Below, piece after piece: positions 17,904 to 42,695 of a DNA stretch of 64,000 nt. This stretch comes from Chaetoderma sp. LZ-2023a. Its lineage: Eukaryota > Mollusca > Caudofoveata > Chaetodermatida > Chaetodermatidae. The number at the start of each line of letters is the position of its first letter. The stretch's first letter is position 1. The stretch is from NCBI GenBank assembly GCA_034401795.1, contig JAVVLW010001440.1, forward strand, positions 271,501-335,500, given 5' to 3'. The notes below the pieces were generated by a model that saw only the letters and a list, made by a program, of their open reading frames with translations, did not search any database and was not told the DNA's origin. The position numbers and the translations under genes were made by a program.

Positions 17904-20673
17904 ATGATAAGACTCATTCGGGGGTGACATTTCTAGCTCGCGGGGGTGATGGGTGGGGGGGGGGCGGGGGTACGCGCTGGTCCGCCATGTCGCTCCACTC
18001 CGCCGCACCGCATGAACAGGATGCGCGGAAGGGCTGGTTAGCTGTGATTTTCGGGGTTGCGCATCACGTATCGCATCTCTCCTGAAGGTACAAAGACCGG
18101 CCTCTAGAGCCGGTGGAATGTTCACGTTCCAGTGGGGCCGTGCGACCATTGACGCCGAGATTGAACCTCACTGTCTCGTCCCAACTGTTGGTGTCACCGG
18201 TATGACAGTCTATTACTAACTTATAAGTCTGGACAAGATAATAAAATTAAACAGTCACAATTAATAACTATACAAACAATGCTACTCGTTTAAAAGTAAT
18301 AAGCAAATAATACAGTACATGGAGCTATCCAGTGTTCTTTCTACGTGGTCTCGCCGAGGGTACGACACAGACTCGTAAATTCGCACAGGTATCCCAGCAA
18401 GGGAGCATCGCAACGAGGCTGCTTGGTAGTTTAATATAAACTAATTGCACCCCTAACACACAAAACATTGCTGTTGCAAGAGGAAAGTGTCTCACACGGG
18501 CCTCCATCAGGAAAATGCCTTCAACGCCGAAGCGAAGGAAAAGAGTTGGCAAAAAGGGCCACCCTTTTGTTCAAACAAAAAGCTAAGCGCTGGTCAATCC
18601 TAGTGACGCCATAATTAATGTGATGCACACTGGTTTACGTGAAGACTGGTCGAATGATTTCCGAAGAATTCACAGGTCCCCGTCTTATGTAGGTCCAACG
18701 ATACTGCAGTGGTAGTTGCTGCTTTATTTATGTGGGCCTTCTGCTACATTCTAACTTACCATTTGGTTATTAGATACGATTCTAAGCTATGGCCGCAAGT
18801 GGCAAGGATTCCTACCTATCTGTAGACACATATATCTGACTGGCGAAGATAGCCAGCTTCCAGAAAGTCGCCCCGCATAGCATCTACCTCAGAAAGAGAG
18901 CATGCATACATGTTACGACGCAATAGCTTCTGAATCATCTGACGATCCGGTCACTCTTGTCCGCAACCACATATAACATCACTAGGACAAGTTTACACAG
19001 TTCACAAAAGCAAATTAGAAAGCACAAAATCGTTTATGATGGGGAGTAACAGACAGATATCCACCGCCATTTTCCTTCCCGTGAGGGCGTGGTGAGTTCT
19101 AAGATCTCACTCAGACTCTGCAACGAGTTAGATGAAGATCTGTGTCTCACCCGGCACCCACGTGCTACGGAATTAACATATTACCTGTTATTAGGTTTAA
19201 GTTACAGAATGTTCAGAGATGCACTGCAGGCCGGTGTCACAATAATAAATAATATAATTTCTTTTCGCAGTGGTTGCTATATTGGCGGGGGAATCTAAAC
19301 TAAATATTATCCGAAGATACGGGGGTGGGGGTGGGTGTATGTAAATCGGCTCTTTAGTCGTCAACGCTCAGAAACCTCCAATAGTTTCACAGAGTCGGAT
19401 CCTGCCAACGCGTGGATGGGGAATCCAAACAAGTAGTAAGCCTTGCGGCTAGATGAGGCGTGGAAGGAGACAATAACTCGATATAAATAAGAGGCCATAA
19501 GGTAATTGACAAATTTTTACACAACCTAGCTGGTGCGTAGTGTTACATATCCACTACAGCCGGAAAAGAGGTGTACACAATATGTAGAGATTGTCCCTAA
19601 CCACTCTAAACCTATCCTATCGAGCTAAAATAGCCAGGTATAGTCGGAAACATGTCAAGCTCGAGCAACTGGAGCATGATCAGCGACCTTGATGCTGGGG
19701 GAATATAGTGATGTGGACATAATGTTGCTGTATAGTATTACCTAGCGTACTGCATCCTAGAGCTTTTATATAGAAACAAAACATAATAACTAGGGTGGCT
19801 ACTTGCCATATACACAACTAACTAATACAGTGCTAACGATATATCACAGGTCATAGGACCTAACGGTGCTGTTAGTTGAGAGCACATGGAAATAAAGATA
19901 ATATTTACAGTATGAAACGGAAAGTATAAAAATGCGGTCGGAAAGACCGGGTAGGGACCTATTAGTCATCAGTACCATTTGCGGAAATAATTAAATGCAC
20001 AATAGTATAGTTACTTGAGTACCTATTGGTCATCAGTACAGTGAGAGTTCATAAGCCACGGAAATTAATACGCAACAGTTGTGTAGAGTGAGATGGCACA
20101 ATCTTGAATGCAGGGAAAGTTTCCGCAGGCAGACTATTGATGCAGCTCACTCTCATGACGGTGAAGAAGAACGGATAATAAGGATGTCCATTAGACACTC
20201 AGATTAACTGATACATAATTTAAACAGTTGAAAGCTGCCCATTAACAGAGAGGGCTCAATTTCTAATTAAATATGCATGTACAATAACTGAGTACATCGT
20301 GCAGGATACGTCACATAGCTTTTGCGGTGCACCGAGCAGAGTCCCACCAGACTGTGATCAAAAAATTAATTAACACACGCGACATGCAGCGCGGACGTTT
20401 GATACCACTTTTCAGCATGGTCGGAAGATTTGGCGAGTTATCCACCAAGAATCAACATCAACTCTACGTTCTGTAAAATCACATTGGGCCCGTAAGACCC
20501 TTCCGGAGGAAACTCCTCTGAGAAAGATCTGGAAAGGGAGTTCTTATATTAGTCTATAGCCCCCGGATGGCCGTCCGGGAGCTTCATGAATTGTTTTTGC
20601 AGAAAGGTTTTAAGACTACTCACCGGCGCAGGGTAACTCAATTCCGAATGGCACTGCTGTAGTGTTGGTACTA

Positions 20674-20732
20674 CAGTCGGTTAGCAGTTGTCCCGCGTCT
20701 TGCACTGCGCTGGTCAGCAATCTTCCTGACTG
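20674..20732. repeat. 59-bp segment inverted relative to copy C
   Basis: The segment begins CAGTC and ends GACTG. Its reverse complement, not its direct sequence, matches 42536-42595 of copy C at roughly 90% by eye, while the flanks stay colinear. Confidence 0.85.
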
Positions 20733-20779
20733 CGTTGGATTCCCACCGATGATGCTCTCGATTCTCATTTTTTCGTCCG

Positions 20780-20845
20780 TTTTATACTACTCGTGACGTC
20801 AGAGGCAGGACGCTCCAGCCAATCAGAGGGTGAGCAGTAGCCAAT
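20780..20845 (-). promoter_or_regulatory. Pol II promoter module of copy A (CCAAT, CCAAT, CRE, TATA)
   Basis: On the minus strand in transcription order: ATTGG (20841-20845), ATTGG (20819-20823), TGACGTCA (20794-20801) and TATAAAA (20780-20786), 7 nt after the CRE. Start would be expected about 25-30 nt beyond the TATA, near 20752. The same four-box order recurs in copies B and C. Confidence 0.75.
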
Positions 20846-23800
20846 CATTGTGCAACCAGAGGTTGTGACGTAGCTATCATGTGAACAGCACATTCCCCAT
20901 TCAGTTAATGCACACACGCAATTACGACGTCAACGCAATATTCTGAAGATAATTTAAACTGGAGTTTTAATGATAACTCGGCCATTTCTGGTCCGAACTT
21001 AACAAAGTAAAAAGTTATGTAATCCTCGTTTCATTCTGGTTCTGATCGCTTCCACAAAATCACAAGTACCAACTCGGTACACTATAAGCGCCACAGTATT
21101 ATAGCTCGCGGGGTATTGTCGGGCCGTTCCGGTGTCTGGTGTCGACTCGCCGCGCTGCATATGCACGACGAGTGATGCCGCTGGTTAGCTTCCAGTCATG
21201 GGGTTATGAATCCCATGTGATACTGCCCTATGGGTAACAAAGACTGCATCCTACGGCCGGTAGAACACAATCGTTCCGGTGGGGCCGGGCGACCATCGTC
21301 GCGAATATTAAACCCTACAGTCTCATCCCAAGAGTTTGTGCCACCGGTATGCCTGTCCATAGCAATTTCGTGATCTATGGACTTACAAGATTTGATTGGT
21401 GACCTAATTAAAATAAGTCAATACAATGATTTTACCTAAAACAGACCGTCAAGTATACTAGATAAAATGAGCATACGAAATACAAGACATCGAGACAGCC
21501 TGAAGAACTTTTAAACGTGGGGCTGCCGGAGATACCACACAGACTCGTAGGTTCGCAGAGGTATCCCCGCAAGAGAGGCTCCCATACACGAGATAACTAA
21601 TTAACTTAATATAAGCTATTATACCTCTAAGCTGAAAGGAAAGAAAATTATCTTTTATAGTGTTGAAAAGCCATGTGCCTCACGCCGGGCACTACTCCTA
21701 GTGCTAGTTTGGGTGAGGAGTATTATCCTCGTGTGGGCCGTCGCCACTGAATCCTTGCGAGAGGCAAGTGCCTCGCGGGGGCCTCCGTCACAGAAAAATG
21801 TCGCCATCGCTTAAAGTGGGAGAAGAATATTGGCCAAAAAGGGCTTACTCTAATATTCAACCAAAATGCTGTAAAGAAAAGACCATACCTAGTGAAATTA
21901 TGACTATAAGGTAGCGTGCTGTTTTATGTGAAGATGGGACGAGCGATTCCCGAAGGATTCCCACGTCCCGTCTTATGTAGTTTTCAATATGCTGAATTAG
22001 TAGTTGCCACTTTTATTTTTGCGGCCTCTTCCATGCCTAACCTAATATTTAGTTTTTAGAGACAAGAACTATCTTAGGCTGCAAATGGCTGGCGTCGACA
22101 TAGCTTTTAGATATAGCTGTCATTGAGAACGGATGCCCTAAGACATCAATACTGAAGACACCGTGCATACATGTTACTTTGCAAGATCTCCGAACTGGGT
22201 AAGAATCCAGACATCTTGCTCCGTAACCACATAAAACGTCACAGGACATTGGTTACTTTTCACAAAAGCAAGTTTAGGCAACTGATCTATCGTTATGGTG
22301 GGGGTGGGGTGTAAGAGAGACGAATACCCACCGTGAATGTCCTTCCCGTGAGGGCATAGCAGATCTTAATATCATGCCCAGACATTCTTACGGAAATCGG
22401 TGGGGATGCACATCTCGCCTGTCACCAGGTCCTATGGAGCTATCTTTTTTAACCTACGTTAGGCTTAAACGCAAGTTGCCCAGTTATGCACTGTGGTGCG
22501 GGGGGTTGTCAAGCAGATAAAAGGAAATAATAATTAAGGTATGTTTTCACTTATACCCTTTTGCCTTCCCGGTGTGGTTCCTTGTCCCCGCCACGACGAC
22601 CGGATGCCCAGTTCCCCACACAGGACGCAGCCCAGGCTAGGTACCTTTCCGTATATGCCTGAGACAAAGACCTGTCCAAGTTATGGGGCAATAATCCGGG
22701 ACAGAGTCAAGGTGCACACTGACGACTCCCGTGCCGAGCGGACACAGTACTGGGCGCCAATTAAGGTCATTTAGGCAAGAGGCCGCAGCCTGCATAGACC
22801 GTACCACGGAGGTGAAGTCTGCTACACGCATCACAGCTAAGGCGTAGATCATTCTTTGACGTCATTTTAGCTGAGAGGCCCTGCGCAGATCGTACTAGAC
22901 AGGTCATCCACCCCACGGGTATCTGGGCCCCAGACTGCTCCACCCGCCCGGCATGTGACAGGTTACACTGTCTCACACACATACCCTCCTGCTTCCCAAA
23001 GAATCATTTTTCATGACCTCTGATCACAGGAGGCATGACTCACAATACTAATGCTTGCCATGGCCTGACTGTACATTGAGCCATCTTGACCACTCATAAC
23101 CAGTAATGTGTTAAGGAACTAACATGATCAAGACGACCGGCTGACGACCCAGTCGATAGCGATCACCATCTGAGCTCACACTCAGGGGCAACCGACGGTC
23201 TGATCCGTACCTATCTGCCGACAGAATACAAACTTTGACCGTTTTTCCCAGCCATGCCTGCAGGCCATCTCTAGCAAACACAGTGAACTTCTAGTCTGCC
23301 AGAGATGTCCTGGGTGTGGACTATCATTCACGCACCACGCATGTCCACTTATCCCAAGCCTCAGCAGTCCGAACATGGCGCTGACTAGACGATACCACAG
23401 TAGGATGTTAATTCATCCTTCATTAGACACGGAGGCCTTCAGTATCTCCTCTGCACTATATGAAGCTGTTTCTTATGTGTCCCGGACCCTCGCGGGCCCA
23501 CTGCTGCCTGTTACTGCGCACCTTTGATGAGCCTATCCCTCTCGGTCCGCAGTGCTTCCTACCTTGGCAAGGATAACTAACTACTAAGTATCAGAAGATA
23601 CGCTGGAAATGTGTGTGACACCACACCCTGATCATCACCACTCGGAAACCCCAATAGTTTCCCAGGGTCGGATCAATCCATAGTGCGGATAGAGGCATCC
23701 AAACAATTAAGAAGCCATAAAGCTTAGTGGAACATGAAGAGAGACAATAACTTATAAATATGAAGCCCATTAGGTATGTTGGCCAATTTTACACATCCTT

Positions 23801-24176
23801 GCCCGTAGGTTGGATAACCACTTTTTGGTGTAGCCGGCAGATCCAGCGAGTCATCCACCAAAGAACATCGCTGCCTCTACATCTGTGGAATCACATATTC
23901 AGGCCAGGAAAGGCCTCACCACAAGTTTGTGTTCCGAGTTAGTTCTTGATGTATTCATGAACAATATTCAAAAGTTACAAAAATGCTCCCGCACAATCGG
24001 GAGATACAAAATTGCTTTTAGTGCGGTGGGTTGGATTACTGCTGTGGCTATGGAAGAGAAACCTCCCGAAACAGAAGTGATCTGCTTACTGCCTGTTTTG
24101 CTGATAGTAGTTGCATACAGATCCAACCTATTCGGCCCCTGGCCGAGGATGCTCTCGAGTTCTGGATTTCATCTCC

Positions 24177-24239
24177 TTTTATACTACCTGTGACGTCAGG
24201 CGCAGGTTTCAACCAATCATCGGTCGAACACTAGCCAAT
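24177..24239 (-). promoter_or_regulatory. Pol II promoter module of copy B
   Basis: Minus-strand order: ATTGG (24235-24239), ATTGG (24213-24217), TGACGTCA (24191-24198), TATAAAA (24177-24183). Spacing matches copy A even though the surrounding sequence has drifted, which suggests selection on the module while the element was active. Confidence 0.78.
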
Positions 24240-24266
24240 CAGCGCGTAACTAATAATGATGCAGTT

Positions 24267-24289
24267 GAATGTTCTAGAACATTCTAGAA
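24267..24289. promoter_or_regulatory. Perfect five-unit heat-shock element
   Basis: Five alternating pentamer cores GAA-TTC-GAA-TTC-GAA, each separated by exactly two bases (24267-69, 72-74, 77-79, 82-84, 87-89). This is the canonical HSF-binding arrangement. It lies about 85 bp upstream of the copy B TATA box and about 30 bp beyond the distal CCAAT. Copies A and C have no comparable array. Confidence 0.85.
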
Positions 24290-24551
24290 TTTCTGTGTAC
24301 ACGTGGTTACGACGTAAAGGCAATATTTTGAAGATAATCAAAAAGGGGTTTTCCGTAGATAACTCAGCCATTTCCTAACCGATTTTGAAATGGTTTACAG
24401 TTTCGGAAAGCCCGTCGAATTCTGGGGTTGATTTATGCCAGATTCGGCGGGAACAAGTAATTAGAAAGAATTATAATGTACCTAATCGGTACACTAAAAG
24501 CGCCATCCTATCTTGGTCATGAAATACACGCTCTGTCAAAAATAGTATTAA

Positions 24552-24607
24552 GCGCGCGCATGCGCGCTATGCGCTTTAACGAACTTAGTCGTTTTTATAA
24601 CGCCATC
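24552..24607 (-). repeat. Left part of a 229-bp promoter-upstream subrepeat, cut by the LINE
   Basis: GCGCGCATGCGCGCTATGCG to the target site TATAACGCCATC (24596-24607). The remainder of the same unit resumes after the LINE at 32928. The next unit (from 33101) shows colinear similarity across the cut. Confidence 0.75.
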
Positions 24608-26522
24608 GTGTGTGTGTGTTGTAATATTTAAGGCGTTTATATGCTAGTTCCCAATGCTAGGGTCTAGACTCACGCCTGGCCTTTATGGTTTCTGTTGAAT
24701 TCTTGTGAATTCTTGTGACATCGGTTTGTGCATTAGCTTGTGTCTCTCTGTGTGTGTGTGTGTTGATCATTGTCTCTCGATTTTGTCTCATGTTGCTGTT
24801 CTTGTCCATGGCTTTTCTGTTGCTCCTCGTGCTTGGGCGTGGGTGATGGCGATGGCCTAACCTGGACCTAACTGGGGTGGGGAAGGGATGGGGTAGGTGC
24901 TGGGTCGGGGGAGGGGGAGTAGGTGCGTACGGTCTTATGACCTGATGCACCCGGGGGGCGGGGCTTTAGGTCAGAGACCTCGCCGGCCCCTTTGGGGGGA
25001 GTGGGGAGGTTGGGTTGTGGGGTCTTTCGGGTCCTGGGACCCATTTGCACTTCTGGCCATCATCCGAGCAGGCACCAGCGCGCACTTGTTTGATTTTGAT
25101 TGGTTAGGTAGCCCGTATGGTGACTGTGTCCGTCCGAGGACGAACTCGATCAGTCATCCGGGTTACATCCCTCCATAGTCCCATCGAAATGTCCGAAAGA
25201 TTCTAATTCTAAAAATTGTGTTTTGTTTTTGAAATCCGTATGTTGTGTGGTTCCATCCGAGGACGAATCCATTCAGCATCCGGTTTACTTTGATTATGCC
25301 GAGATTTTTTTTTTCCCTACCTAACCCTAGCTCACGTTCGCACAGTGATGGGCACTGTATGATGGGACCTCAATTTAAAGTCCCATCCGAGAAGACTGAG
25401 CAAGTGGGGCCAAGTACATTGCTTAAGCGTACTCCAGCAGCTTGCTGTGCCCAGAGTTGTCAGTCGGTCTGTCCATTTGTTGTTTGGTTTGTCAGTCCGT
25501 TCGACAGACCAGCATACCTGCCTATGAGCCGCGAATGAGATGGACACACGTCCATTTCCCTCGCGGTCCGCCAGCAGGCAGGCCCATCTGTTGTTCTGTT
25601 GTCCATTCCAGTCTTCCATCTGTCTTTCTGACCGTCTGTCATTGTTGTGTTTGTTGCTGCCTTTTAGCTCCAGCTCCAGCTCTGGATCTGAAAGAAAAGG
25701 AGGGGAACAATGCTGAAAGAAAAAGAAGGAGAAGACAGACATTGTGGACAGGTGTTTTGGGGCATGTACTCACATACTCTGGGTCATCATTCATGACCAT
25801 CTCACGATCCTTAAGTGGAAAAGTCAAGCCAGGTAAAAAGTTTTCAAGAATTTAATAACAATTCATAGAATGTCATCACAAGTAACATACTATATAGGCC
25901 ATGCATACAGCAAATCATTCGCTTACACGTATTTCCCCTCGGACCTGACACCTCATGCGCCTAGGGGAAAAAGTGTGATGCGATTCCCCTCGGACCTGAC
26001 ACCTCATGCGCCTAGGGGAAGTGATTTGCGTTACTCCTCGGACCTGACACCTCACGAGGGTGGTGAGGCAGTAACTGCTGCATTGACCATAGGGGTCGGT
26101 GGTGGGGTGGCAGTAGATGCTGCAATGGCCGTAGCGGTCGATGGTGGGAAGGCACTAAATGTCGCAGGAGAGGCCGGGGATTGGAAGGCAGTAAATGCTG
26201 CGGGACAGGCCGGGGTCATAGAGGCCGCAGAAGAGTGCTTCTTGCGCCATCTCACGTGTTTTCTTTTTTTGACATCACAGATTACATACTGTATAGGCCA
26301 TGCACACAGCAAATCATTCGCATACACGTATTTCCCCTCGGACCTGACACCTCATGCGCCTAGGGGAAACAGTGTGATGCGATTCCCCTCGGACCTGACA
26401 CCTCATGAGGGTTGTCTCAGTTGTTGTTTCGGTCGGTGTCTTGGGCTAATCAGAATGTGTTCTGATTATGTGATGTGTTTGTCCGATGCAAGCACGAACT
26501 TGATTAATTCGTGGTTGATCTG
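24608..26522 (-). repeat. LINE 3'UTR with internal repeats and CA-rich tail
   Basis: The 1.9-kb 3'UTR contains a G-rich core (24830-25060), two copies of a TCCGAGGACGAA block about 124 bp apart (about 25131 and 25257), and a repeat unit with CCCTCGGACCTGACACCTCA. That unit occurs at about 25938, 25988, 26038, 26336 and 26386, the result of a duplication about 400 bp apart (25866-26040 versus 26268-26420). The minus-strand end is CAACACACACACACAC next to the target site. Plus-strand frames such as 25870-26898 are antisense. Confidence 0.8.
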
Positions 26523-29500
26523 TCAGTCACGCATCGCTATAATGTCTTCTACAGGGTCAAGATTGAGGTTTCCCTTTCTCAGCGTATTGATGAGTTCCTT
26601 TCTAATGTCGGTATATTCAGTGCACCGTAGGAAGAAGTGGTCTAGAGTTTCAGTCACCTTGCAGGCCTCACATTGGTCTGTGTCTGACAGGTTGAGTTTT
26701 TTTCGTATCTGGTTAACGCTGATCCGACCCATTCTGATGTGGCGTAATACAATGTCGCCTTGGCGTCCTGGGATGTGGTTTTGGTATTTGCGTTTGACTC
26801 CTGGGACGACTCTGTACAGGGATCTGCCGGTTGTGCTTTCGTCCCATTGTCTTTGCCATTTGCTGTTGATGTGCCTTTTGACCAGGGCAATTGCTTAGGA
26901 CTTTGAGAGTCCTATGCTGGTCATAGTTCCATCTTTGAGTGCTTGCTTGGCTGCCTCGTCCGCCTGTTCATTGCCTTTAATGTCAACATGGCTTGGGACC
27001 CAGTCGATGTCCACGGTTTTGTTGTCAGTCACCACAGTTGCATACAGCTGCCGGATTTCCTTGATTAGGTTGTCCCTGCTCTTGCTGCTGCTAGATTTGA
27101 AGCTCTTCACCGAGCTTAGTGAGTCTGTGAGTATAACGTATTTGCCTGGATTAGCTGTTTTAATCCATTCTAGAGCCTTTTTAATTGCCACCAGTTCGGC
27201 TGTGAATATTGACAGGTGATTCGGGAGCTTGTACTTGAGGACTTCTTCCTGGTCGCCTATGACTACTCCTTCTCCGCATTCGCCGGAGTTGGGCATTTTG
27301 GAGGCGTCGGTAAAGATTTTTCTGTGCTCCTTCCATCTGTTGTCAATGTTTTCCAGAGCATAGCTCTTGATTAGCGCTGGTGGATCTTTCTTGCTTATCT
27401 GTGAGGATAGGCTGTCATGCGCCTTGATCTGCGGAAGTAGCCATGGCGGGTCAGGAGCCGGCCTTGAGCTTTCTATTTCGACGTTTACCAGTTCAGTGGC
27501 ACTGGCGAGCTCTGTCATTAACAGGCCTGGTGGTTTGGTCTTTTTGGTCATTTTGGGCAGTACCTTGTGTCTTAGGTGCTCCTTGCATGGTAGACAAACC
27601 TCCCTGGTAGGGTGTGTAGGTGCAGAGCTTTGTAGGTATGTCCAGAATTTGAGAAGCCGTTCCTCTCTTCGCAGATCTAATGGGATTTCTCCACACTCTA
27701 CGTTGATTGCGTCTCGAGGGCTACTCTGTGAGGCACCACAGCAAATGCGCAGGCATTTTGTTTGGAGGGTGTCAATGGTTTCTAACAGTGACTTTCTCGC
27801 CGTGGCATATGCTTCGCATCCATAGTCTATCCTTGACAGGATTAGGCCGCGGTATAGCATAAGCATGCTCGGCAGGTCTGCACCCCAGGTGTGCTTTGTT
27901 AATGAGCGAAGGAGATTTAATTGCTTGAAGCATCTCTCTCTCAGACTCTTGATGTGGGGGTTCCATGTGAGCTTCCATCAAATGTTAGTCCCAGGAATTT
28001 GGCTTCAGCACATGTCTTGACTTTCTGTCCATTGAGGTACAGATTTGCATCCTGGCCTGTGTATTTAACATTGGTAAAGTTGATTTGAACTGTTTTTTCC
28101 GCAGACAGTTTGAAACCATTTTTTTTGCACCACCGTGAGACTATGTCCAGAACTTTCTGCATGGTCTTACGTGCACGGTCTATCTTCGCATATTTGTTCC
28201 ACAGTGCTGTGTCATCAGCAAAAATAGACCCGCCTATTGCGTTGGGACCCAGTGCATGGTCTTTTTCAATGTCTTTGGGTAGATCACTCATCATGATATT
28301 GAACAGTAGGGGACTTATTACCCCACCCTGCGGGGTGCCGTTTTCCAGTGTTTGTTCCCTAGACATTTGCCCATTAACGCGGACGCTAATCCTTCTGTTA
28401 TCGAGAAAATCTCGTATCCAGAATAGGATGCGGCCACGGTAACCAAAGTCATAGAGCTTTTTTAGGACTCCGTTTCGCCACATCATATCGAAGGCTTTCT
28501 CGACGTCTAAGAAAACTCCTATTGTTGTGTTTCCTCTTCCCGCATCTAGGGCTTCCTTGGCTGCCTCAGTCAATCTGACTAGGTGGTCCGTAGTGCGTCT
28601 GCCCTTTCTGAAGCCGCTCTGCCAAGGGTGGAGTAGACCGTTATGTTCGAACTCATGTTCTAGACGGTTTTTGATCATCCTCTCCATGACTTTGCATAGA
28701 CAGCTCGTCAGGGAGATTGGCCGGTATGATCTTCGGTCAGTTTTGTCCTTCCCTTGTTTTGGGATAGGAACCACGATCCCAGTTTTCCAAACTGAGGGCA
28801 TTTTTCCAGAGCTCCATATGAGGTTGTAGAGATTGAGTAGCATTTGCTTACCCTCCTCTGGCATATTACGAAGCATGTCGTATTTCAGGCCGTCCTCACC
28901 TGGTGAGGAGCTTTTGCCTCTGCCAAGGGCTTGCTCAAGCTCCATTCTGTTGAACGGTTTGTTGATGTCTCGGTTGTTAAGATCTTCGCATTTTCCTGAG
29001 CTGAACAGGTGATTGATATGCTCATCGACCTTTGTTTTGGTTGCTACAAAGTCATGGTCATGGTTATCATTGCTACTGGTTGCAATGAAGACTGTGGCAA
29101 GCACTTCAGCTTTTTCCTTGTCATTGGCGTGCTTTACCCCATTTGCTATGAGGGTGGGTAAGGGGTTTTTGGACTTGGTTTTTTCGCTGGCTATAGCTTT
29201 CGCTTTGCGCCATATTTGGCTTGAGGGTGTGAACCGAGTGATTTCAGAGCAGTATTGTCGCCAGTGATCGCGTTTTGCCTTTTTGATGGTTCTTGTTACC
29301 TTGGCCTGGAGTCTCTTGTGTTCAACCAGGCGTTCAATGCTGAAGTTTCTCTTTAGTCTATTCCAGGCTGTTTTCTTGAGCTTTACTGCTTCTTGGCACT
29401 CGCTGTTCCACCAAGGCACGCGTTTGTGTTTGGGGTTACTGTCTGGCCTTGATTGGGGGATGGCTGAGTTGGCAGCCTTGTAGAGAATCCCCATACATTG

Positions 29501-30321
29501 CTCATAATATTCCTCAGTGCTGGTACTAGTGATTGGTGTCTCCAGCTCCATGGCCATTATGTGCTTGTATTCGGTCCAGTTGGCCTTTTTCAGATTCCAA
29601 TTGTTCCTGTGCAGTGGCGCCTCGTTCTTGCTCTGTAGGCTTCCTATCTGTATTTTGATAGGGAGGTGGTCGCTTCCGAGGAGCTGGTCTTGTATGTCCC
29701 AGCTGGGGGTTGGTCGAAAGCCAGGTGTTATGAGGCAAAGGTCCAAGACCGACCATTCCCCATCACTAGAGTTATATCTGGTTGGTCTCTGGTCATTTAG
29801 TAGGCACAGGTTGTAGTTATCGATAACCTGTTCTAATATTCGGCCTTTGGGGTTCGTGTTTTGCTCCCCCATAGGGCATGGTGGGAGTTGAAGTCGCCCA
29901 GAAGTATTGTTTCACCTTCTAGGCCTTCAAGGAGCTTGTCGTAGTCCGAGGAAGAGTGCAACCTGGGACTATAGACGTTTACAATATTAATAGTTTCGTG
30001 ATTGGTTTCTATTTCTATCGTAAGGTGCTCTACGCTACTCTCACATTGTGGCAATCTTTTGTAGGAAAGATTACTTTGTATGAGGGTCGCTATGCCGCCG
30101 CCGCCTTCACCCCTAGAGGTGGTTGCAGATTCTGTGGTACGGTCTTGTCTTTCGACATTGTAGTTGTACCTTTTGAAATCCTGGTTGGGTTTCAGACGGG
30201 TTTCCTGTAGACATATAATGTCTGGGTGGTCATTTTCGTTGTGGAATGTGTACCACAGTTCGTCAAGGTTGGTATTAGACCGGGTGCCTCGAACGTTCCA
30301 TTGAAGAATTTTGACCCCCAT
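26523..30321 (-). pseudogene. LINE ORF2: APE endonuclease, reverse transcriptase, RNase H, CCHC
   Basis: Start ATG at 30321 (MGVKILQWNVRG) lies two bases after the ORF1 stop. The endonuclease shows QETRL, GDFNSHH and SDHLPI. The RT shows LDVEKAFD, NGTPQGGVISPLLF and FADD (about 28205-28220). RNase H (about 27320-26930) has TDAS, AEL, TDSLSS and PSHVDIKGNEQAD. A terminal C-x2-C-x8-H-x4-C knuckle is near 26640-26680. Breaks: a one-base shift near 29860 in the endonuclease, a one-base shift near 27976 after the RT, and an in-frame TAA at 26895-26897. All catalytic residues remain visible. It would nick target DNA and prime reverse transcription of its own RNA. Confidence 0.93.
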
Positions 30322-30323
30322 GA

Positions 30324-32120
30324 TTAGTTTGATGAGGAGCAAAGTTCTACGAATTTCGCAACGAGTCCGTCGACATCGACCTTGTTCCTTGCTGCCTCGT
30401 TACCAATGCACACTGATGATATGATCGTCTCTATGATCAGTCTGAAAGTTTGGACATTTAGAACAATTTTATGCTCTCCAACAATCGGGGTGGGTCTTAC
30501 CTCGCTCGTTGGTGTCCCTCTGGTGATCTCGGCCGGCAGGTCACTGCAGCTGCTAGTACTGCTAGTGGGGTTCACAGGTTTGATAACCTGTTTTTCCACT
30601 AGCGTTACCTCCAATGGGCCGTTTGGTTCAGCCCTTTGGTTTCGGGCCCTGCTCCTGCTTATGACTTTCAGCCCTTTGCAGGCGGGATTTTTAGGCGTTT
30701 TTGTTTGCCTTTTGGCCTGTTTACAGGCTTTGCTGGCCGGACTCCCAAGCGGGAGGGTGGGCGTGGCCGTCTCTGTTGTGGGTGGCACAGTAGGAGCCTC
30801 CTCCCCTTTTCCCTGGTGTCTCATCACTGAGCAGTCCCTCATGGGGGTGGCCAGCTTCCTCCTTACGGATTCAGCCCTTTTCTGCTATGCTGTTCTTTCC
30901 AGAGGTGTGGCTGGTCCAGGTGCTGGTATTCCGGCTGGCTGTTCAGTTCCCCTGCTTATTTGCTGGGTAACCCTCTTCTTGGCCTCCCCGTATGAGACCT
31001 GCTCTGTTGTTTTGACCTTGAGGATGTCCTTGGCTTTTTGCAAAGCCGGGCATCCGCGATATGCAGCACTGTGGTTACCCTTGCAATTTCTGCAGTGGGG
31101 GGTCTGCTGGCAGTCCTCGCGTTTGTGGTTCCCTCCACAGTTGACGCATGCGCTGGCTTTGGTCCTGCAGTGCTTTGCCACGTGATCCAGCAGGTGGCAT
31201 CTGAAGCATCTGACGGGCTCTGGGATGTATGGTTTGACTTTGAAAGTCATCCATCCCAGTTTAACCTTACTTGGCAGTGCGTCTGAGTTGAAAACCAGTT
31301 TCACTGCATAAGTCGGTCTGGCTGTTCCGCCAATCCGGCCCACCCATTCCACTTTACGTTCCCCCTGGGCATTCAGTTCTTCTTTTATGTCGTCATTCGT
31401 GAAGTCCCTTGGGACTCCCGATATGACACCTACCGCTTTACTTTGTCTGGTGTTTTTGGTGGTGAATTCTTCAATAGACACCACGTGGCTGCCTATCATT
31501 GTGATTTTCAGCAGCTTCTGGAACTGCCCTTCACTGGTGGGGGTTACCAAAACCTCCCCGTCCCTTTTGTCTAGGCCTGCCAGCATGCCCACCATGGCAT
31601 ACAGCAACCTATAGATTACCATGCGGGTTAACCCCGCAAAATCATCTCCCGCGAGTCCCTTGACCCTGACCCTCCTTCCCTGGGTACCATCTCTCTGCCC
31701 CCCCCCCTTATGTCCCACCTCCCTCCCTTCCCTACCGGACGCACCACCCGGGGAACCCCCGCCCTGCGCGGTGGTTTGGTCTCTCCCTCCCGCTGGGGAG
31801 GCCCCCTTGTCCCGCGACCTCTTGCTGGGAGTGCCTTCCCTTCCTCCCACTTCCTCCCCCTCCTCTAACACCACGACCATCCTCTTCCTTTTGGGGCCTG
31901 GTGTATCACCACCCTTCTTAGGGGTGCTTTGTGGTGTGTTCTGGAGATTGCTCTCCAGGATCACCACTTGCTGGGCCACCTGTTCGTGGGTGAACTCGTC
32001 CATTGCCACTTCGTCATTGTCTTTGCCACCATTTGGCGCCGAGTTGGCTGTGTCCAGTTGACCACCACCAGTATCATGCGCCACTACAGGAAGCTGTTTG
32101 AGGAAGTCAGCTTCCTCCAT
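30324..32120 (-). pseudogene. LINE ORF1: gag-like RNA-binding protein with CCHC knuckles
   Basis: A frame of about 598 codons is interrupted once by TAG at 30885-30887 (codon 412) and stays in frame afterwards. Residues about 1-170 are charged and low-complexity. Residues about 225-300 form the RRM/PRE-like region typical of Jockey/I gag (GVPRDFTNDD to PYIPEPVRCF). Three zinc knuckles follow at about 303-357, all beginning C-x2-C, with H-x4-C spacing in the first two and H-x6-C in the third. The C-terminus ends CSSSN then TAA at 30324. It packages element RNA. Read-through or a nonsense mutation cannot be told apart from sequence alone. Confidence 0.9.
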
Positions 32121-32915
32121 GTTGCTTACCCAACGGTGTGGATTATTTAGAAGGTAGTGTGTAGTAGGAAAATTTAGTAGGTACAGTATGAGAGGTAGGA
32201 TAGAATGCAGTAGGATTAATGTGTTAAGGAGATGAGTAGAGTAGGCTGTGAAAGGCGGAAGTGTAGAGAGAAGAGGTAGAATATGCCTAGTAAACGTTAC
32301 CAGTATACCAGTGCTGTGTCAACCCCTTCGGTAAAATTCGCGAAAATTCCAACTAAGCACTGAAAGGAAGATTTAAAAAAAAAAGGAAATTTTTTTTTCT
32401 TAGAAAATTGGTGTCGAAACCGATCAAGACTAGCGCTAATGGCCGACAAATGCGGCTGTTTGAATGGCGAAAAATCTAGTGTTTTAAAGCACGCAGACGA
32501 ACATCCAAAATATAATTGATCAAAGAGGTTTAAACAGGTTTTAAAATTACGAAATTTATTAAAATAATTTAATAACAATACCTTGTAGTTACGACTCGGG
32601 GAGCACAGCAAATAAACGTAAAAATAAAAAGCTTTGTTTTCGAAAATTGGCGCCAAATAGAAACGAACAAGACAACACTAATGGCCGACAAGAACAACGA
32701 TTTTACTGGCGGAAAAGCTAGTGCTTGATGCACGCGAACGAACCTCAAACGGAAAATGTTTAAAATAGTTTAAAGAAAGGAACTATCGAATAGCACTATT
32801 CTTTAAACTCTAGTCTCACTTAAGCAATCTAATTTTGTCGCAACCGCAATAATGGACGCAATTTACACTAATCTAAAACACGTCTATCATCAACGAACGC
32901 AAATTTGAACTGGGG
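32121..32915 (-). promoter_or_regulatory. LINE 5'UTR with tandem monomers
   Basis: Two related monomers begin with GAAAATTGG at 32404 and 32642, about 238 bp apart, each with CTAATGGCCGACAA and GCTAGTG or CTAGTG words. A third partial unit lies near 32340. Repeated 5' monomers are known internal promoters in some LINEs; a promoter role here is inference. Confidence 0.65.
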
Positions 32916-32927
32916 TATAACGCCATC

Positions 32928-33265
32928 TCTCTCATTGGCCCATATACGCTTATAGCTCTACCCCGGGGGCCGTGTTCAGGGAACGAATCCGGGACGGATG
33001 GCGCGTAACAAGCTTAGCTGGTACGGCCGACACCTGACCGGTCGATCCGAACTACACCCTCTCCCAATCCTGACACATGCTGCCAGGGAAGCTCTGATGT
33101 GCGCGCATGCGTGCTATGCCTTCTTACGGACTTAGCCGGTTTAACAAAACCTCTCCTATAGGGCTTTATACACACATACTATCCTACTGGAGTGCATCTG
33201 GAGCAGTCGTCCCGCACCCAGATTAGCTGGGACAGTCCGTACCCATCCGGTCGATCTGTGCTACA
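32928..33265 (-). repeat. 229-bp GC-rich subrepeats upstream of copy B, ending in TGTAG
   Basis: The rest of the LINE-split unit (to about 33100) and one complete unit (33101-33265). Shared words are TTAGCTGG, CCGGTCGATC and CTACACC. The period, after removal of the LINE, is 229 bp. The same unit occurs next to copy C at 42931-43139. On the minus strand the outer edge is TGTAGCACAGATCGACC, and each unit has a TATAAA or TATA-like word. Confidence 0.75.
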
Positions 33266-33277
33266 CCAAACCCTCCT
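33266..33277 (-). promoter_or_regulatory. Candidate polypurine tract next to TGTAG
   Basis: On the minus strand AGGAGGGTTTGG directly precedes TGTAGCAC at 33265. A purine-rich tract immediately 5' of a TG-starting repeat is the layout of an LTR retrotransposon plus-strand primer next to its 3' LTR. Two T-runs interrupt the tract. Confidence 0.45.
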
Positions 33278-34052
33278 AGTTTGACACCTGTGACAAACGA
33301 TCAACGCATTGCGGATTGAATGCATGGTAAAACGCTAGCCAGGAATTATAGACTTCCAAAGTAGACGTGTAGCCGAGAGGAGTAGTGATGCATGAGACGC
33401 GTAGTTATCAGAGAAGAGCACAGAGAGGTGCAAAAGAGTTTGGGAGGGAGACATACTTTTAGTTATTATTATTTTTCCTGGTCTTTTCTTTTTTTGTTTG
33501 TTTTATTTCGTGGTGCATGCTGTTTCTTTATTCTAATACCTGATTCGGCTAAAACAATAGCTCGCATGGGCGTTCTCTTAGTTGCGGGTAATTATTCTTC
33601 TGCAGAGAACGGCCAAGTCAAGTTCCAACGTACCTTAATCATTTATAGTTATAATATAATATAAGAAAATATATAATTTTAAAACGTACAGTAATATCAC
33701 AGTTAAAATGTAAATTACATATGCATCCTGAGTATATAAAGGGATGCATACAGTGCGGCCCGTTTTTGGCGGGTCCGCGCGGATAGCTCTCGCTATCCAC
33801 AATCCGTAATGACATACTAACGCGGGAAGAAAAATAATAAGAAAAATAATATCTTAATAAAGTAAAACGACTAGTTCATCTGGCAGCCCCAGCATAGCTG
33901 GGACGGCATGCCGGGAGTAATGACATATTTGTTACGGTGTGTTATGTACTTACGTCACACATGACATGTTTACATCACAGGTTTCTTCAGCAATTATTTA
34001 TGTGAGACACAGCTATGCAACAAAATTGCGCAGCTGTGTAGGATGACCATGG
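33278..34052. other. No gene recognised; small TATA-bearing hairpin
   Basis: AT-rich stretch. At about 33721-33750 GCATCC and GGATGC flank a TATATAAAG. No motif-bearing frame. Confidence 0.4.
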
Positions 34053-35313
34053 TCAGCCTAGGGACTGGGTTACAATTATAAAAACATGTATAATAAGAAA
34101 AAGAATATCTAACAAATAATAAAATAATAAGTTCCGTGGCGGATGGTTCTCTGCTGCCGAAATATCACTATCTATGTTGCCAAGGTCAGTAGTACTGAAG
34201 CTGGATGAAGCTGCTGATATATCCATAGATGCACTAGTGGTGGTGGTGATGATGACGCATGTTGTACTGACTGGAAGCGATGCTGATACGGCTGACATCA
34301 CTGTTGTCGAGGAGGTGGTGGTAGTGGTGCAGGCTGCAGGTTGGCTGAATACTGTGATGATGAGCGGTGTCGATGCTGCTGCAATGATTGCGGATAATTT
34401 TCTTATTTTCACAGCCTTAAGTAACTTGCTGGCGAACGTCCTGGAAATTGCATGGATTTCAGGCTGTTGCGTGATTCTTCGTTTTTCAGAATAGGGACGA
34501 TCCGGCGTAGGTGTTATTTGTATGGCAGGATCTATTGGAACGATGGTGGTGCGCGCGTGTGTCAGTGTGCTTATCTGTGGTGCACTGGTGGTGATGACGG
34601 CTTCCATCCATATTTAAGCTACACAGAGATATTGATCGATCGGAAATGTCCTGTAAACCTGGTTCAGATCCTGTCACAGGAGTTGAGATTGGCACTGACA
34701 TGGGCTGGCCGATCACGGATGTGGTGATGATGCTGAGTGTTGTCAGTGGAGTCACTGCAGGTGCTGCCGGTGCGGAAACTACAGTTGGTGTATATACCGA
34801 TACTGCAGGTGTTGCCGGTGCTGTACTTGCGGGTGCTGCCAATGCTGTGGTGATGGATGCTGGAGTGCTGATGCTAGCTGGCTGTGTTCCGGATGGTGCT
34901 GGTCTAACAAAATGTGGAAAGTCAGTTTGTCGTCGTTGGGTACATTTCGTCTTCGACATTTTTCCCATTGGAAGCACAGTAACTGGAAGTCTACTTTCGA
35001 AACATGGAGTGAGGATATTTATGTCCTCATTCTGTTCACCAGGTTCTAACATCACAACTAACACATGATGTTTGAAAGATAATGTGTGTGTTACACTGTA
35101 CAGAGTAGCTGAATACATGCAGTCTGTACAGTATGCACATTGTAATAAATGATCGCGATTGACATGCAGCATCAACTCCGAGTTTCTGGAGAATGCACGT
35201 TCACAAGGCTCTCCATTATGTTGTAACACTGTACATGGATACTTCTTCCCGAGATGAACATGTGCTGACTCCTCCGAGCTGTCAGACAAGGCGAGATATT
35301 CCGCAAGTGACAT
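34053..35313 (-). CDS. C2H2-like zinc-finger protein with Ser/Thr/Pro-rich tail, frame-shifted end
   Basis: The main frame runs 35313-34486 (275 codons). Near the N-terminus are two C2H2-like fingers: C27-x9-C37-x12-H50-x4-H55, with the usual F and L positions but a widened first loop, then C59-x2-C62-x13-H76-x5-H82. Residues about 130-215 are rich in Ala, Pro, Ser, Thr and Val. A second minus-strand frame, 34607-34053, overlaps it and keeps the same Ser/Thr-rich composition. It ends with a hydrophobic stretch (about YYLLDILFLIIHVFIIV) that could be membrane-spanning or an AT-rich artefact. A one-base frameshift or unseen splicing near 34.6 kb is likely. A CRE/TATA module lies about 210 bp upstream. 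I do not recognise the family. It may be a host gene or an extra frame of the surrounding element, 3' of the Gypsy pol remnant and on the same strand. Confidence 0.55.
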
Positions 35314-35514
35314 CTCATTTCGGCATGATGTGCGGAGCTGCCTAACCTAATTTAAATTTCCTACCTCTTCATACTTTCCTGGCCAAATATAATATAGATA
35401 ATAATAAAGTAATAAGTAAACAGCAGAATTTGGTTTATGACATGAACGTAGCCTAATGCTCAATCGTCCCTAGTGTCGAGTTTGAGGGGAAGATGGAATT
35501 TCAGTGCACGTTTC

Positions 35515-35545
35515 CTCCTTTTATAAAATTTTGGTGACGTCACAG
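35515..35545 (-). promoter_or_regulatory. CRE-TATA promoter ahead of the zinc-finger frame
   Basis: Minus strand: TGACGTCA (35535-35542), about 8-9 bases, then TTATAAAAGG (TATA at 35519-35525). Spacing is the same as in copies A-C, but no paired CCAAT boxes are seen. A start near 35490 would leave a leader of about 180 nt before the ATG at 35313. Confidence 0.65.
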
Positions 35546-38259
35546 GAGGGCGGATGACCACACCCGAAAATTTTAGGGTGAGTCGGCAAGGCCCAATATG
35601 GAAAGTTTTAATTTTAATTCTCCTGGAGTCGGATCATATATTCCCTCCGTAGGAAGGACGTAAATATAAATTTAGAAAGGAAGGATAGTTGCATTCATCC
35701 CTACTCACCAGGAAAATCGAGTCTCTGATCAACGTTAAAAATCCGCAACTACGTATTTCCGTGGAAGCTCACCTTTTAATTAGCATGAAGCGTTTTTTCA
35801 AATTGGATGCTTATAAACTCGCCTGTTCAAATTTCAGGCTGGAATGCCTGATGGGGTGTAGGAGAGCGTGATGACATCAACGGCCGTGGCCCCAACTCAC
35901 CACCTCTTGCCTCCTCCATCACGTTGGGCGGTTCTTCTGTTTATAGTCTTTGATCCAATTTACTGGAAATTAGAAGTGCTGATCACGTGATTCTTGTTTT
36001 GGAAAGTACGTGGTTGATCGGAAACTTGGGAAATCTGTATGTAATGATGGAGTGTTGATGATGCTGATTATTCGTAGTTGATGTGAAAAATGGAATATAT
36101 GTTTTCAAAGTTCTGTTCCTCAGAACAACGTCCCTTTACATGTGCGCGATCTTATACATGCGCCGCCTCTTTGTCTGTAGTAGAATTATTCCAGCTCATG
36201 TTGATTAGTGACCGGAATATGTAGGTAAGAGAATATTTGAAATTATCCATGATGTTATACTGTCGAAGGTTTGATGCTACTTCACAAGACCGCGTGCTAA
36301 TGATTTGGTTATGCGGTAGGACAGCAATGTTCTTAATCAAAAGTAAGACATTATAGCTGACTGTAATTTATTGTTTGGTTTAAACAGCTCAATGTCTTGC
36401 GGAAAACCAAGTCTACTGATCCGTGAAGCTGGATTGTGTTTTCCCGGTGGGTGGCCTGCCAAGCATCCTCCTCTGTGTGTAGGACCAGTCCCATCCCTAC
36501 CTAGACCAAACTTTATTGTCACAGTATAGCTCGGAAAATGCGTGTCTCATTTTTACAATTACAGTACCGTCGTATGGAGATTGTGAATACAGTCATCCTG
36601 AGTGTCTGTGTCTTTGTCATGTTGGTGAATTTGATTGATATGCATGGTTGCTTATCTGCGAACGATTCTTGGACTGATGTGAAGTGTGACGTTTTTATAT
36701 CAGCGTGGCGGGAAGTCTGCATGTGGGTGATATCAACTTTATCGGACATGTTGTATTTCGCTCTGTAATGCCCGAGTCCTAAGATGGGGCAGAGTTACTT
36801 TAGAATGCGGATGACCAAGGAAGAAATCAGACCATCATCAAATTTCCTTTTGGTAGCAAAATCCTACTCGATACCGACAACAGACTGTGGGCACCTGGCT
36901 CTCTTAATAATAATATTGACTGTTATTACATCTGAATGAAGTGTGAAAGTTTAGCTGTTTACGTACGGCGATTCCGAGGTGGGGGAGGGGTGGGGCAGGG
37001 GTGTGGGGGAATCTCCCGTCGCGCGTACTGTAGATGGCTGTGGTGTTGTTCCTCTCCATATGATCGGTTTTCCGCATACTGGATAAGGAGGCATTTGTGG
37101 AAAATGTTGACTCGTGTTGATGATGATGGTGATCTGTTGTAGGGAAGTCGGGTTTGCTGTGTGACACTAGCATAGTGCAGATTGGGCATATCCAGGTTTC
37201 CAAGCTGGGAAATGCCAATTCTGTTGCTATTGTGGAAAAGCCGGGTTGCGGAAAGTGAAACTTTTTCGATTATCAAAGCTAGGTGGATGTTTACGATGTC
37301 GTTGATGATGTTGAATGTCCTCGTTATATGATTAAGTAACTAGGTATGTATGTGGCATTCGCGCGACGATGCATTGACGTATCCAGCCTTACGGGAAAGT
37401 GTGTTCTGTATGCTCCTGGCGTTCTGTGTCTTGGTGTGATGTTCTGACTGCTCACGGGGTGCGTGGGGGTAGGGGTGGGGGAGGGGGTGGGGAGCGCTTG
37501 GTAGGGCGGTTGTGGTCAGGGATGCACTTTTGATGAAGCCGGGCATCTCCCATTACACGACAGTTGGTACTCTGTCATAATTTTTAACTACTGGGAATAT
37601 TCGAGCCGAGAGTCTGCTGAACAGGCTGCTTCCCTGCCCACAACCAGCACGGGGTGGTGGGGTGGTGGGGTACGTTGACTACGGTCTGGAAGCCACCTAC
37701 TTGGTACCAGCTGACTCTCTCATATCTTAATATTGCCAGTCAACAGACAATTTGTGGAGTGTGAATTGGCCAGGATTGATGATATCCGAACTTGGTGCAT
37801 ATACGAGAGAGGTGAGTTGGAGTGGGGGGTGGTGGTGCTATTGAAGGGGTGCACCTTGGAGTGGGATTGGTCTCACGATTTGCGGATGTGGAGGAGTACA
37901 CCGAGTTGTGTGGTTTTGCTGTTCTTCAAAACAAGCCAAGACCTCATCAAGCCTCTTCACTTCCATTCCATGTATTGCATGTTGCACTCCATAAGAAGCA
38001 TGGCCCAGGGCAGCCTCAGCTTCCGCTTGTGGTAACTTTATAATTGGAGTAATAGCCTGAAGTGGGTGGGAATGGGAAGAGGTCGGTGGAACAACTTTTC
38101 CATCCTTACCCATGGACAGCACAAACGAGAATGTCTTCAGATACGACTTCCCAGATCGTGCAGACCCGCACTGAGGAGGGAGTGGGCAAGTACATATATC
38201 GTCATCGTCCTCAGCGTTAGTTATTCGTTCATCAGATTCCTGGTACTGGGCCGTCACTG
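35546..38259. other. No gene recognised; G-rich islands
   Basis: Possible 3' internal region of the Gypsy-type element. G-rich tracts with several GGGG runs at about 36976-37010, 37445-37495 and 37650-37670 are quadruplex candidates on the plus strand. A minus-strand frame at 38257-37838, just past the integrase end, has an acidic DDDD stretch and no recognised domain. Confidence 0.4.
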
Positions 38260-39720
38260 ACCCACGGTTTAAGTCGATCGAAGTGGATGACTGAGATCAG
38301 GCTATCTGAGGCGCGGATACGGTAGGTCACGTCTGACTTCTTACCTACTACCACATAGGGGCCTTTCCACTGGTATCTCAGTTTACTCGGCACGTTTGCA
38401 GAACGTCGCTAATCGTGAACCCAAACCATTTTCCCTGCCTCATACAGGTCTCCATGCACTCGCCAGTCATGCCACGTTTTCTGACGCCGGTGTGCAGTGG
38501 ATAATGTTGCTCTAACTAGCTCATGGGTCTGTTCTATCTGCTGCTGCATGAGCTCTACGTTGAGAGATTGTGAATCTTTCACTCCCGGTTTCCTATGCAT
38601 GGCCAGATAAAGGGGTAAGGCTAATTCATGGCCTAAAATTAACTGAGCAGGGCCATAACCCATGCTGGAATGTATTGAAGTGCGGAATGCCATGAGCACA
38701 AATGGGACTCATAGATCCCAATCTCGACAAGCAAGGCGTGTTTCCTTAGTCAGCATCTCTGCCAGGGTTCTGTTGAACCTCTCTACCATCCCATCAATTC
38801 GCGGATGGTAGGGCGTTGTGCGTGTTTTAACTATATCAAACAATTTGCAGAGCTCAGAGATCACCCAGCTCTCAAAATTACTTCCTTGATCGGAGTGCTG
38901 TTCATAGGGCATACCGAATCGGCAGAACACATTGTTTGTCAAAACTTCTGCTACTGTGGATGCCTCTTGGCCCGGCAAAGCAAATGCTTCCACCCACTTC
39001 GTAAAATAGTCTTGCAATACCAGGATGTACTTGTTTCATTCACCGATCGTATTCAAGGGTCCGAGCACATCAATAGCCAGTCGCTCCCACAGTGCACCAA
39101 CAATTTTAACTTTTAGGCCTGTGGAATGGTACTGGCCAACAGCGAATCTTTGGCATGGGACACATTTGGTGACCTATACCTTCACACTATCGCATATCCC
39201 GATCTGGTGGAATATCTGTTTTATCCGCATTGTAGTTCGCTCGATGGCTAAGTGTCCAGCGCTATCGTGTAGTTGTTCTAATATGGTTTTACGATAATGC
39301 TCAGGGATCACTATCCGGTTATTTATGTGGAGAATGTTGTCTTGTATATGACACTCTCCAAACCGCTGATTGTAGTATTTTGCCTCGCGGAAAGTGGTGT
39401 AACAGATTCCTTGGGAGGGCGTACCTCCTCCTGGATGATTGCGCATCTGTTTCTTTTTTATGAGCGACTGTCTCCGTGTTCCACTCTGCACACCCCAATT
39501 CGGAGAACACCAGAGATGTCTGTGAAGTATTTGTCATGGTGGTGGCCACTTCTTGTTCATCCTCAAGCCTGATTCTGCTCAAGGCATTTCCATGCAGTTT
39601 GCCAGGTCTGTGAACAACATTGACGTTGAAGGCCTGCAGGGATTCCTGCCACCTCGATACTGCGGCGAATGCGTAGGCGATGACGGAGCTGGGGTAGCAA
39701 TGGTGGTGGTGTTGATACCG
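38260..39720 (-). pseudogene. Ty3/Gypsy pol remnant: RNase H end and integrase
   Basis: Minus strand, in order: the RNase H C-terminus (RWQESLQAFNVNVVHRPGK, near 39650-39600), the integrase zinc-binding part (HDSAGHLAIERTT, near 39250), and the catalytic core with Asp in DVLGP, Asp in HSDQGSNF and Glu in MVERFNRTL. The later core follows (GHELALPLYL), and a GPY-type module (KGPYVVVGKK) ends near 38290. All three DDE residues are visible but the frame is broken several times. Protease, gag and RT are missing on the 5' side. No chromodomain is seen. It is on the same strand as the promoters of copies A-C. Confidence 0.88.
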
Positions 39721-41438: not shown

Positions 41439-41626
41439 GATGCTGGTGGAATATATTGATGCGGATATAATGTTTCTGTATAGTATTACCAAGCGTACTG
41501 CGTCCTAGAGTTTTTATATAGTGTGAAAAATTGATGCTGGTGGAATATATTGATGTGGATATAATGTTTCTGTATAGTATTATCAAGCTTACTGCGTCCT
41601 AGCGTTTTTATATAGAAACAAAACAT
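41439..41626. repeat. 94-bp tandem duplication inside copy C
   Basis: Two units starting GATGCTGGTGGAATATATTG at 41439 and 41533. Copy A has a single unit near 19691. Confidence 0.9.
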
Positions 41627-42629: not shown

Positions 42630-42695
42630 TTTTATACTACTCGTGGCGTCAGAGGCAGGACGCTCCAGCCAATCAGAGGGCGAGCACTAGCCAAT
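42630..42695 (-). promoter_or_regulatory. Pol II promoter module of copy C (mutated CRE)
   Basis: Minus strand: ATTGG (42691-42695), ATTGG (42669-42673), CRE position reading TGACGCCA instead of TGACGTCA (42644-42651), TATAAAA (42630-42636). The order is the same as in A and B. Confidence 0.72.

Follow-up and report, generated by a model that had tools for sequence, protein, structure and literature searches.

The window, by which we mean the whole 64-kb stretch of Chaetoderma sp. DNA analysed here, carries a perfect heat-shock element (HSE) on its minus strand. The array, GAATGTTCTAGAACATTCTAGAA at positions 24267-24289, comprises five alternating cores (GAA/TTC/GAA/TTC/GAA) with exact 2-base spacers and has 15 out of 15 fixed bases in place, as the first-pass annotation had stated. 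It is the sole zero-mismatch five-pentamer match within the window, and a search for three or more contiguous inverted nGAAn units finds five at this place. The two CCAAT boxes, the CRE and the minus-strand TATA box that the same annotation had placed beside the array were all found, together with an E-box upstream of it:

24300..24305, unstranded: E-box CACGTG, upstream of the array (present in 18 of 20 B-like copies)
24267..24289, minus strand: perfect HSE of five alternating GAA/TTC pentamers (motif scan; family-wide in related copies)
24235..24239, unstranded: CCAAT box, CCAAT on the plus strand (window sequence and copy alignments)
24213..24217, unstranded: second CCAAT box, CCAAT on the plus strand (window sequence and copy alignments)
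24191..24198, unstranded: CRE, TGACGTCA (window sequence and copy alignments)
24175..24183, minus strand: TATA box TATAAAAGG (array-to-TATA spacing constant among the measured LTRs)

Both CCAAT boxes are inverted (ATTGG) relative to minus-strand transcription. In this copy of the promoter, referred to as copy B, 83 bases lie between the array and the TATA box and hold the CRE and the two CCAAT boxes. We infer a transcription start near 24150 on the minus strand.

Copy B is one of three related promoters located on one strand within 22 kb. The aligned pieces of the other two, copy A (20746-20988) and copy C (42598-42812), are 70-81% identical to B. Both were said to lack the array and to keep the remaining boxes. 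This stands for the TATA box and the two CCAAT boxes, which are present in A and C, and for the CRE of A (TGACGTCA); C has TGGCGTCA instead. Neither copy contains the array, the best five-pentamer fit having 6 mismatches and the longest run being a single pentamer. The promoters are embedded in long terminal repeats (LTRs) and other mobile sequence, arranged as follows:

17930..21099, minus strand: A LTR of the sister clade without array, left end approximate; the B element is inserted into it
21100..24607, minus strand: main part of the B LTR, left end TATAG (a decayed TGTAG)
24608..32915, minus strand: nested non-LTR retrotransposon splitting the B LTR, with endonuclease, RT and RNase H ORFs
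32916..33056, minus strand: rest of the B LTR on its upstream side (sense 5' end), terminating in CTACA, from comparison with copies
33057..33264, minus strand: other end of the A-type LTR into which B is inserted, matching 42933-43140 next to C
33265..39655, minus strand: a portion of a related element's internal region, adjoining its 3' LTR
40200..43138, minus strand: C LTR of the sister clade without array, left end approximate

The nested non-LTR element is flanked by a 12-base repeat, TATAACGCCATC, at 24596-24607 and 32916-32927. An insert of ~1 kb interrupts the B LTR at about 22549-23547, and ~1 kb that is present in related copies is missing at 23803/23805. Since its LTR is broken by other insertions, copy B is a relic as an element; its promoter is intact in sequence and could at most drive local minus-strand RNA. 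The minus-strand RT, endonuclease and RNase H ORFs at 25870-32120 were considered as the promoter's gene and rejected, because they belong to the nested non-LTR element upstream of the promoter. This nested element contains a second, near-perfect five-pentamer HSE (GAATTTTCGCGAATTTTACCGAA, one mismatch) at 32327-32349 on the minus strand, ~0.2 kb upstream of the ORF at 30885-32120.

Several other features of the window were recorded. The minus-strand ORFs at 34053-34607 and 34486-35313 (184 and 275 aa) gave no Pfam match. The stretch from 33265 to 39655 adjoins the LTR in the same orientation at three other loci (L026, L027 and L028), so that the element may have a post-pol gene region here. 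At locus L010 a B-type LTR is nested in opposite orientation in a homologue of the window's 35.4-39.7 kb stretch. A GC-rich near-palindrome (GCGCGCATGCGCGC...) is located in the upstream part of the LTR (24548-24580 and 33101-33142), where the versions of B and of the A-type LTR end resemble each other (81% over 42 bases). The ORF at 44608-45240 encodes a helix-turn-helix of the Tc1/mariner transposase type (PF01498), and a tandem array at 51472-51905 is built from units of 87-112 bases rich in the palindrome TTATTATGCATAATAA.

Chaetoderma sp. is an aplacophoran mollusc of the deep sea, found at the Site F methane seep (PMC10810820). A 401-base query was compared with the window's own assembly (2.44 Gb, 2753 contigs; the table in PMC10810820 gives 5,340 sequences), and the best 40 of 4384 first-look candidates were scored. 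Two of these are 100% identical, namely the window itself and contig C1131, which was omitted as an apparent duplicate. From the remaining 38 matches (92-95% identical) 20 were fetched as B-like copies (L009-L028).

The dispersed copies have TGTAG...CTACA ends in common; the left end was located in 14 and the right end in 18 of the 20. Target repeats seen by eye in the fetched LTR ends are TTAC (the element of L009 and L028), TTAT (L024) and TTTT (L019), and the other fetched copies showed no exact target repeat by eye at their LTR ends. The seven LTRs that were measured with both ends present are 3.4-3.6 kb long (~3.5 kb when complete). In these seven the array starts 419-455 bases from the sense 5' end and a polyadenylation signal is found at 2560-2722. 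Six of them have an intact TATA box, at 544-563, with a constant array-to-TATA distance of 108 bases start to start. The positions of the TATA box and the polyadenylation signal imply a length of ~0.6 kb for the U3 and of ~2 kb, which is unusually long, for the R region. The first-pass annotation was thus right in proposing a repeat-borne minus-strand promoter with a strong HSE; the promoter is the U3 of an LTR.

At three loci (L009, L015 and L017) the LTR is followed in the sense direction by a primer-site-like TGGCRCCCGATRTGRGGCTCGA, which we take by its likeness to be the complement of a tRNA 3' end. A purine tract precedes the sense 5' end of the LTR (AGGAGGGGGTGG in L020, AGGAAGGGGTGG in L027) and is altered in L026. 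One ~16.25 kb element on contig C14 (about 66.5899-66.6061 Mb) has L009 and L028 as its LTRs and the TTAC target repeat at both outer ends; the two LTRs differ by 162 mismatches in ~2,860 compared bases (roughly 5.7%). ORF fragments between them (L029) encode an aspartic protease, RT, RNase H (RT_RNaseH) and an integrase zinc-binding domain (H2C2), in this order. Protease and RT domains are also found in L030. Judged by this domain order, the carrier is a Ty3/Gypsy (Metaviridae) retrotransposon, and of the two natures that had been offered for the promoter, mobile or tandem, the first applies. Membership of the ONSEN family (COPIA78) was rejected: there is no Ty1/Copia pol, and an integrase zinc-binding domain after RT and RNase H is the Gypsy order. 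The element would therefore work like ONSEN without being a member of it.

The perfect array occurs 5,071 times genome-wide (2545 + 2526), a count in which sites with six or more units can appear twice (the first 100 listed contain 99 distinct loci). The same pattern read backwards, used as a control, occurs 17 times. This difference excludes a chance match as the origin of the array, which had already been called very unlikely. The first 40 loci listed on contig C1 (41 listed sites) were fetched as a sample. All 40 match the LTR promoter, their longest pieces sharing 75-90% identity with B; in L060 the array is read on the other strand, shifted by one pentamer.

Two anchors outside the array gave a view of the family. 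An anchor in the TATA/CRE region has 4,146 places genome-wide (control 1). On C1 up to 31.79 Mb, 9 of its 49 places have a perfect array, and the other 40 were fetched. Nine of them belong, in damaged form, to the five-pentamer clade (L077, L080, L089, L095, L096, L099, L102, L103 and L107, the last broken by an insertion), one has a shorter array (L106) and 30 have none. The second, non-array anchor was chosen to fit the five-pentamer clade and has 3,732 places (control 0). All five pentamers are present in 48 of its 72 copies on C1 up to 48.87 Mb, as they are in 18 of the 20 fetched B-like copies. Further members with the array, on which the first-pass annotation had made its reading depend, are therefore plentiful. 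Its view of B as an odd variant among the three copies has to be given up, since the array is standard in the large clade of B, and A and C belong to an array-less sister clade.

The shorter array of L106, TTCTAGAACATTCTAGATC, is found in an A-like setting. Twenty of the 39 non-self matches of this locus were fetched (rows 2-20 and 22 of the match table). Seventeen are of a three-pentamer type, 15 with three intact units and two (L127, L128) with one unit damaged. The remaining three (L114, L122, L124) are of a two-pentamer type, with one unit damaged in L122. The exact three-pentamer string occurs 168 times genome-wide; as more bases are fixed in this string, the figure should not be set directly against 5,071.

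A tree was calculated for 78 promoters with the array columns removed (29 five-pentamer, 28 array-less and 21 two- or three-pentamer copies). It does not contain L107, L082, L105, L091 and L109 from the 40 anchor copies, 20 of the 40 perfect-array copies, or any of L009-L028; an earlier tree had dropped L060, L055, L066, L035 and L052 from the 40 perfect-array copies. The five-pentamer copies make up one split and the array-less copies another, both with 100% ultrafast bootstrap; the 21 copies with two or three pentamers are arranged as a grade between the two clades. A split uniting the five-pentamer copies with L116 and L119 has 48% support only. Closer steps are missing, as the length of the five-pentamer stem (0.19) shows. 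Because the two- and three-pentamer copies lie between the clades in this array-free tree, a stepwise build-up of the array from 0 through 2 and 3 to 5 pentamers is suggested, with the root of the tree not fixed. The simpler arrays in the genome are perhaps earlier forms.

Two of the damaged copies, L102 (C1:26290535-26290965) and L103 (C1:26298140-26298570), lie 7.6 kb apart on one strand, have zero-length branches and carry the same damaged array. They may represent both LTRs of one young element with an internal deletion. As their promoters are identical and both arrays are damaged, the damage may not have prevented recent copying.

The genome contains three matches to the HSF_DNA-bind domain. 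One HSF exon (L132) reads ...FKHRNIASFIRQLNM and ends in ASFIRQLNM, another (L131) reads ...SFIRQLNLYGFRK; both presumably match the canonical HSF recognition helix. Downstream of the exon, L132:1446-2200 holds a tandem repeat in which pieces of the recognition helix (SFIRQLNMCKYFIV...) are encoded again in several frames. It looks like an intronic minisatellite that arose from the end of the exon. For a comparison with hsp70 genes, the six best of 57 Hsp70 matches were used. The two best, on C19 and C2688 (L134, L135), start like bacterial DnaK (MAKVIGIDLGTTNS, MSKIIGIDLGTTNS), which suggests that these are bacterial contigs in the assembly; they were set aside as DnaK-like. A run of 3 contiguous perfect pentamers is absent from all four remaining upstream regions over about 560 bases, and just one of the four has a marginal five-pentamer fit (6 of 200 shuffles are as good). 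The use of HSEs by this species is thus not confirmed by its hsp70 genes.

We consider it probable that the array belongs to the U3 promoter of a high-copy Ty3/Gypsy LTR in Chaetoderma sp. that is driven by HSF under stress or in the germ line, and that the element gained the array stepwise, after which the five-pentamer lineage spread most. To the anatomy, copy number, graded arrays and HSF exons described above, this reading adds a presumed binding, induction and cause of the expansion. Host HSF trimers would bind the five pentamers cooperatively, and NF-Y and CREB/ATF-type factors would act alongside HSF on the CCAAT and CRE boxes. The genomic RNA of the element would start at the TATA box, which for copy B means near 24150 (minus). 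Transcription would be triggered by proteotoxic stress or by the activity of HSF in germ cells or in embryos.

The strongest competitor, which we nevertheless regard as unlikely, is a founder effect in which an active lineage happened to carry the array as a passenger and spread for other reasons, with little contribution from HSF. In its favour, the five-pentamer copies form a single clade on one long stem, so that gain and expansion count as one correlated event. The decay of the array in the copies also looks neutral. Departures in the copies amount to 3/300 in the array core, 3/160 in the spacers, 111/4100 in non-CpG flanks and 44/660 in CpG flanks. Selection on the array in the copies is not supported by these numbers, 18 of 191 flank sets of 15 sites being as conserved as the core, and its retention, including the 48 of 72, is consistent with plain neutral decay. 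L102 and L103, with identical promoters despite a damaged array, point the same way. However, the strict 15/15 array, its fixed place in the promoter and the existence of two- and three-pentamer relatives are hard to explain without use. Copies only 75-90% identical in the promoter still have the array, with the restriction that they were chosen for it.

The series might also run in reverse, with five pentamers ancestral and lost from the A- and C-type LTRs (5 to 0). The midpoint root falls within the two- to three-pentamer grade, and the direction of the series is therefore not forced. Median terminal branches are 0.068 for array-less, 0.047 for perfect five-pentamer, 0.030 for damaged five-pentamer and 0.031 for two- and three-pentamer copies, in samples that were chosen differently (the two- and three-pentamer copies were picked by similarity to L106). 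The value of 0.031 versus 0.047 does not suggest that two- and three-pentamer copies are older than five-pentamer ones. On the other hand, the longer branches of the array-less copies (0.068 versus 0.047) speak weakly against a loss, again with differently chosen samples, and hint that the array-less clade is older than the five-pentamer clade. On balance we find a reversed series quite improbable and retain the stepwise gain.

Binding of the array mainly by another factor, one that reads TTC(N2-4)GAA or TGTTCT/AGAACA half-sites (STAT-like or nuclear receptor), seems very improbable. TTCTAGAA and TGTTCTAGAACA do resemble what we take to be such half-sites. The five units, however, keep the strict 5-base phase that we regard as the signature of an HSF trimer, CTAGAACATTCTAG equals what we take to be the classical HSE consensus CTnGAAnnTTCnAG, and HSF exons are present in the genome. 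That A, B and C, three related promoters that share a strand and fall within 22 kb, are duplicated genes of a host stress-gene cluster with a tandem promoter has a practically negligible chance, being refuted by thousands of dispersed copies, LTR ends, target repeats and pol domains beside the LTRs, and the tandem half of the first-pass alternative falls with it.

By analogy with ONSEN of plants, the array would most likely serve to let HSF drive transcription of the element, be it under stress or in the germ line. A retrotransposon would profit from induction only where it takes place in the germ line or the early embryo, or where stress extends to these cells. For an animal of a cold seep, heat would be a less likely trigger than hypoxia, sulfide or a developmental role of HSF. 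We would go further only tentatively, to a reading that we hold possible rather than probable. One animal genome may preserve the steps that build a top-strength HSF array (0, 2, 3 and 5 pentamers), and the completed array may have set off the expansion. Should the 40/40 sample be representative, a single LTR family would contain almost all 5,071 perfect five-pentamer HSEs (against ~17 expected from the control), a number sufficient to dominate or titrate HSF. What HSF responds to in this deep-sea seep animal would be chemical stress or signals of the germ line, and not heat.

A single genome thus provides ~5,000 counted perfect HSEs, apparently from one source, together with intermediate forms. 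Two questions therefore become testable: whether the affinity of mobile elements for a stress factor rises in successive steps, and how the stress response of a host is affected if its master factor has most of its strong sites in mobile DNA.

HSE-driven LTR retrotransposons are already well known in plants, and the HIV-1 LTR (PMC9367301), DIRS-1 of Dictyostelium and copia of Drosophila, which are different kinds of elements, have been linked to a heat-shock element or to stress induction. In the full-text literature, with the best matches judged by titles and abstract starts and with subscription papers and outside preprints excluded, we found no animal Ty3/Gypsy LTR family with such an array, and among the same listed matches no report of the Chaetoderma element family. 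Activation of transposable elements by heat shock through host machinery is described as already shown in plants and animals (PMC12810828). The same source reports that the LTR retrotransposons TCN12 and TCN3 of Cryptococcus move at 37 C and have one and two putative HSEs, respectively. These are LTR-borne as in the Chaetoderma element, but the elements are fungal and the HSEs number only one or two (PMC12810828).

Nearest in its working is ONSEN, with which the Chaetoderma element has HSE units in the LTR promoter in common (PMC5059998). ONSEN/COPIA78, COPIA37 and TERESTRA are LTR retrotransposons of Brassicaceae with heat-responsive adjacent nGAAn units in the LTR promoter, up to four in ONSEN and six in TERESTRA; A. 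lyrata has 55 COPIA78 copies (PMC5059998). The LTR HREs of ONSEN, made of four nGAAn, are bound by HSFA2 and driven by HSF in heat, and its heat-responsive element is reported to have evolved from a smaller proto-element and to have been lost in some lineages (PMC5059998). The ONSEN group consists of plant COPIA elements of low copy number with adjacent nGAAn units, whereas the Chaetoderma element is a mollusc Ty3/Gypsy element with ~5,000 perfect arrays of five alternating pentamers and a putative heat response.

In animals, the HSE-bearing Helitrons of Caenorhabditis account for 61.4% of the HSEs of C. elegans, and HSF sites were spread by the element (PMC6927752; PMC8896005). Like the Chaetoderma LTR, as far as our sample indicates, they are an animal mobile element that supplies most HSEs of its host (PMC6927752). 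Helitrons, however, are DNA transposons with dense HSE clusters, which the portions of PMC6927752 used here do not present as the element's own promoter, whereas the Chaetoderma array is part of the promoter of a retrotransposon.
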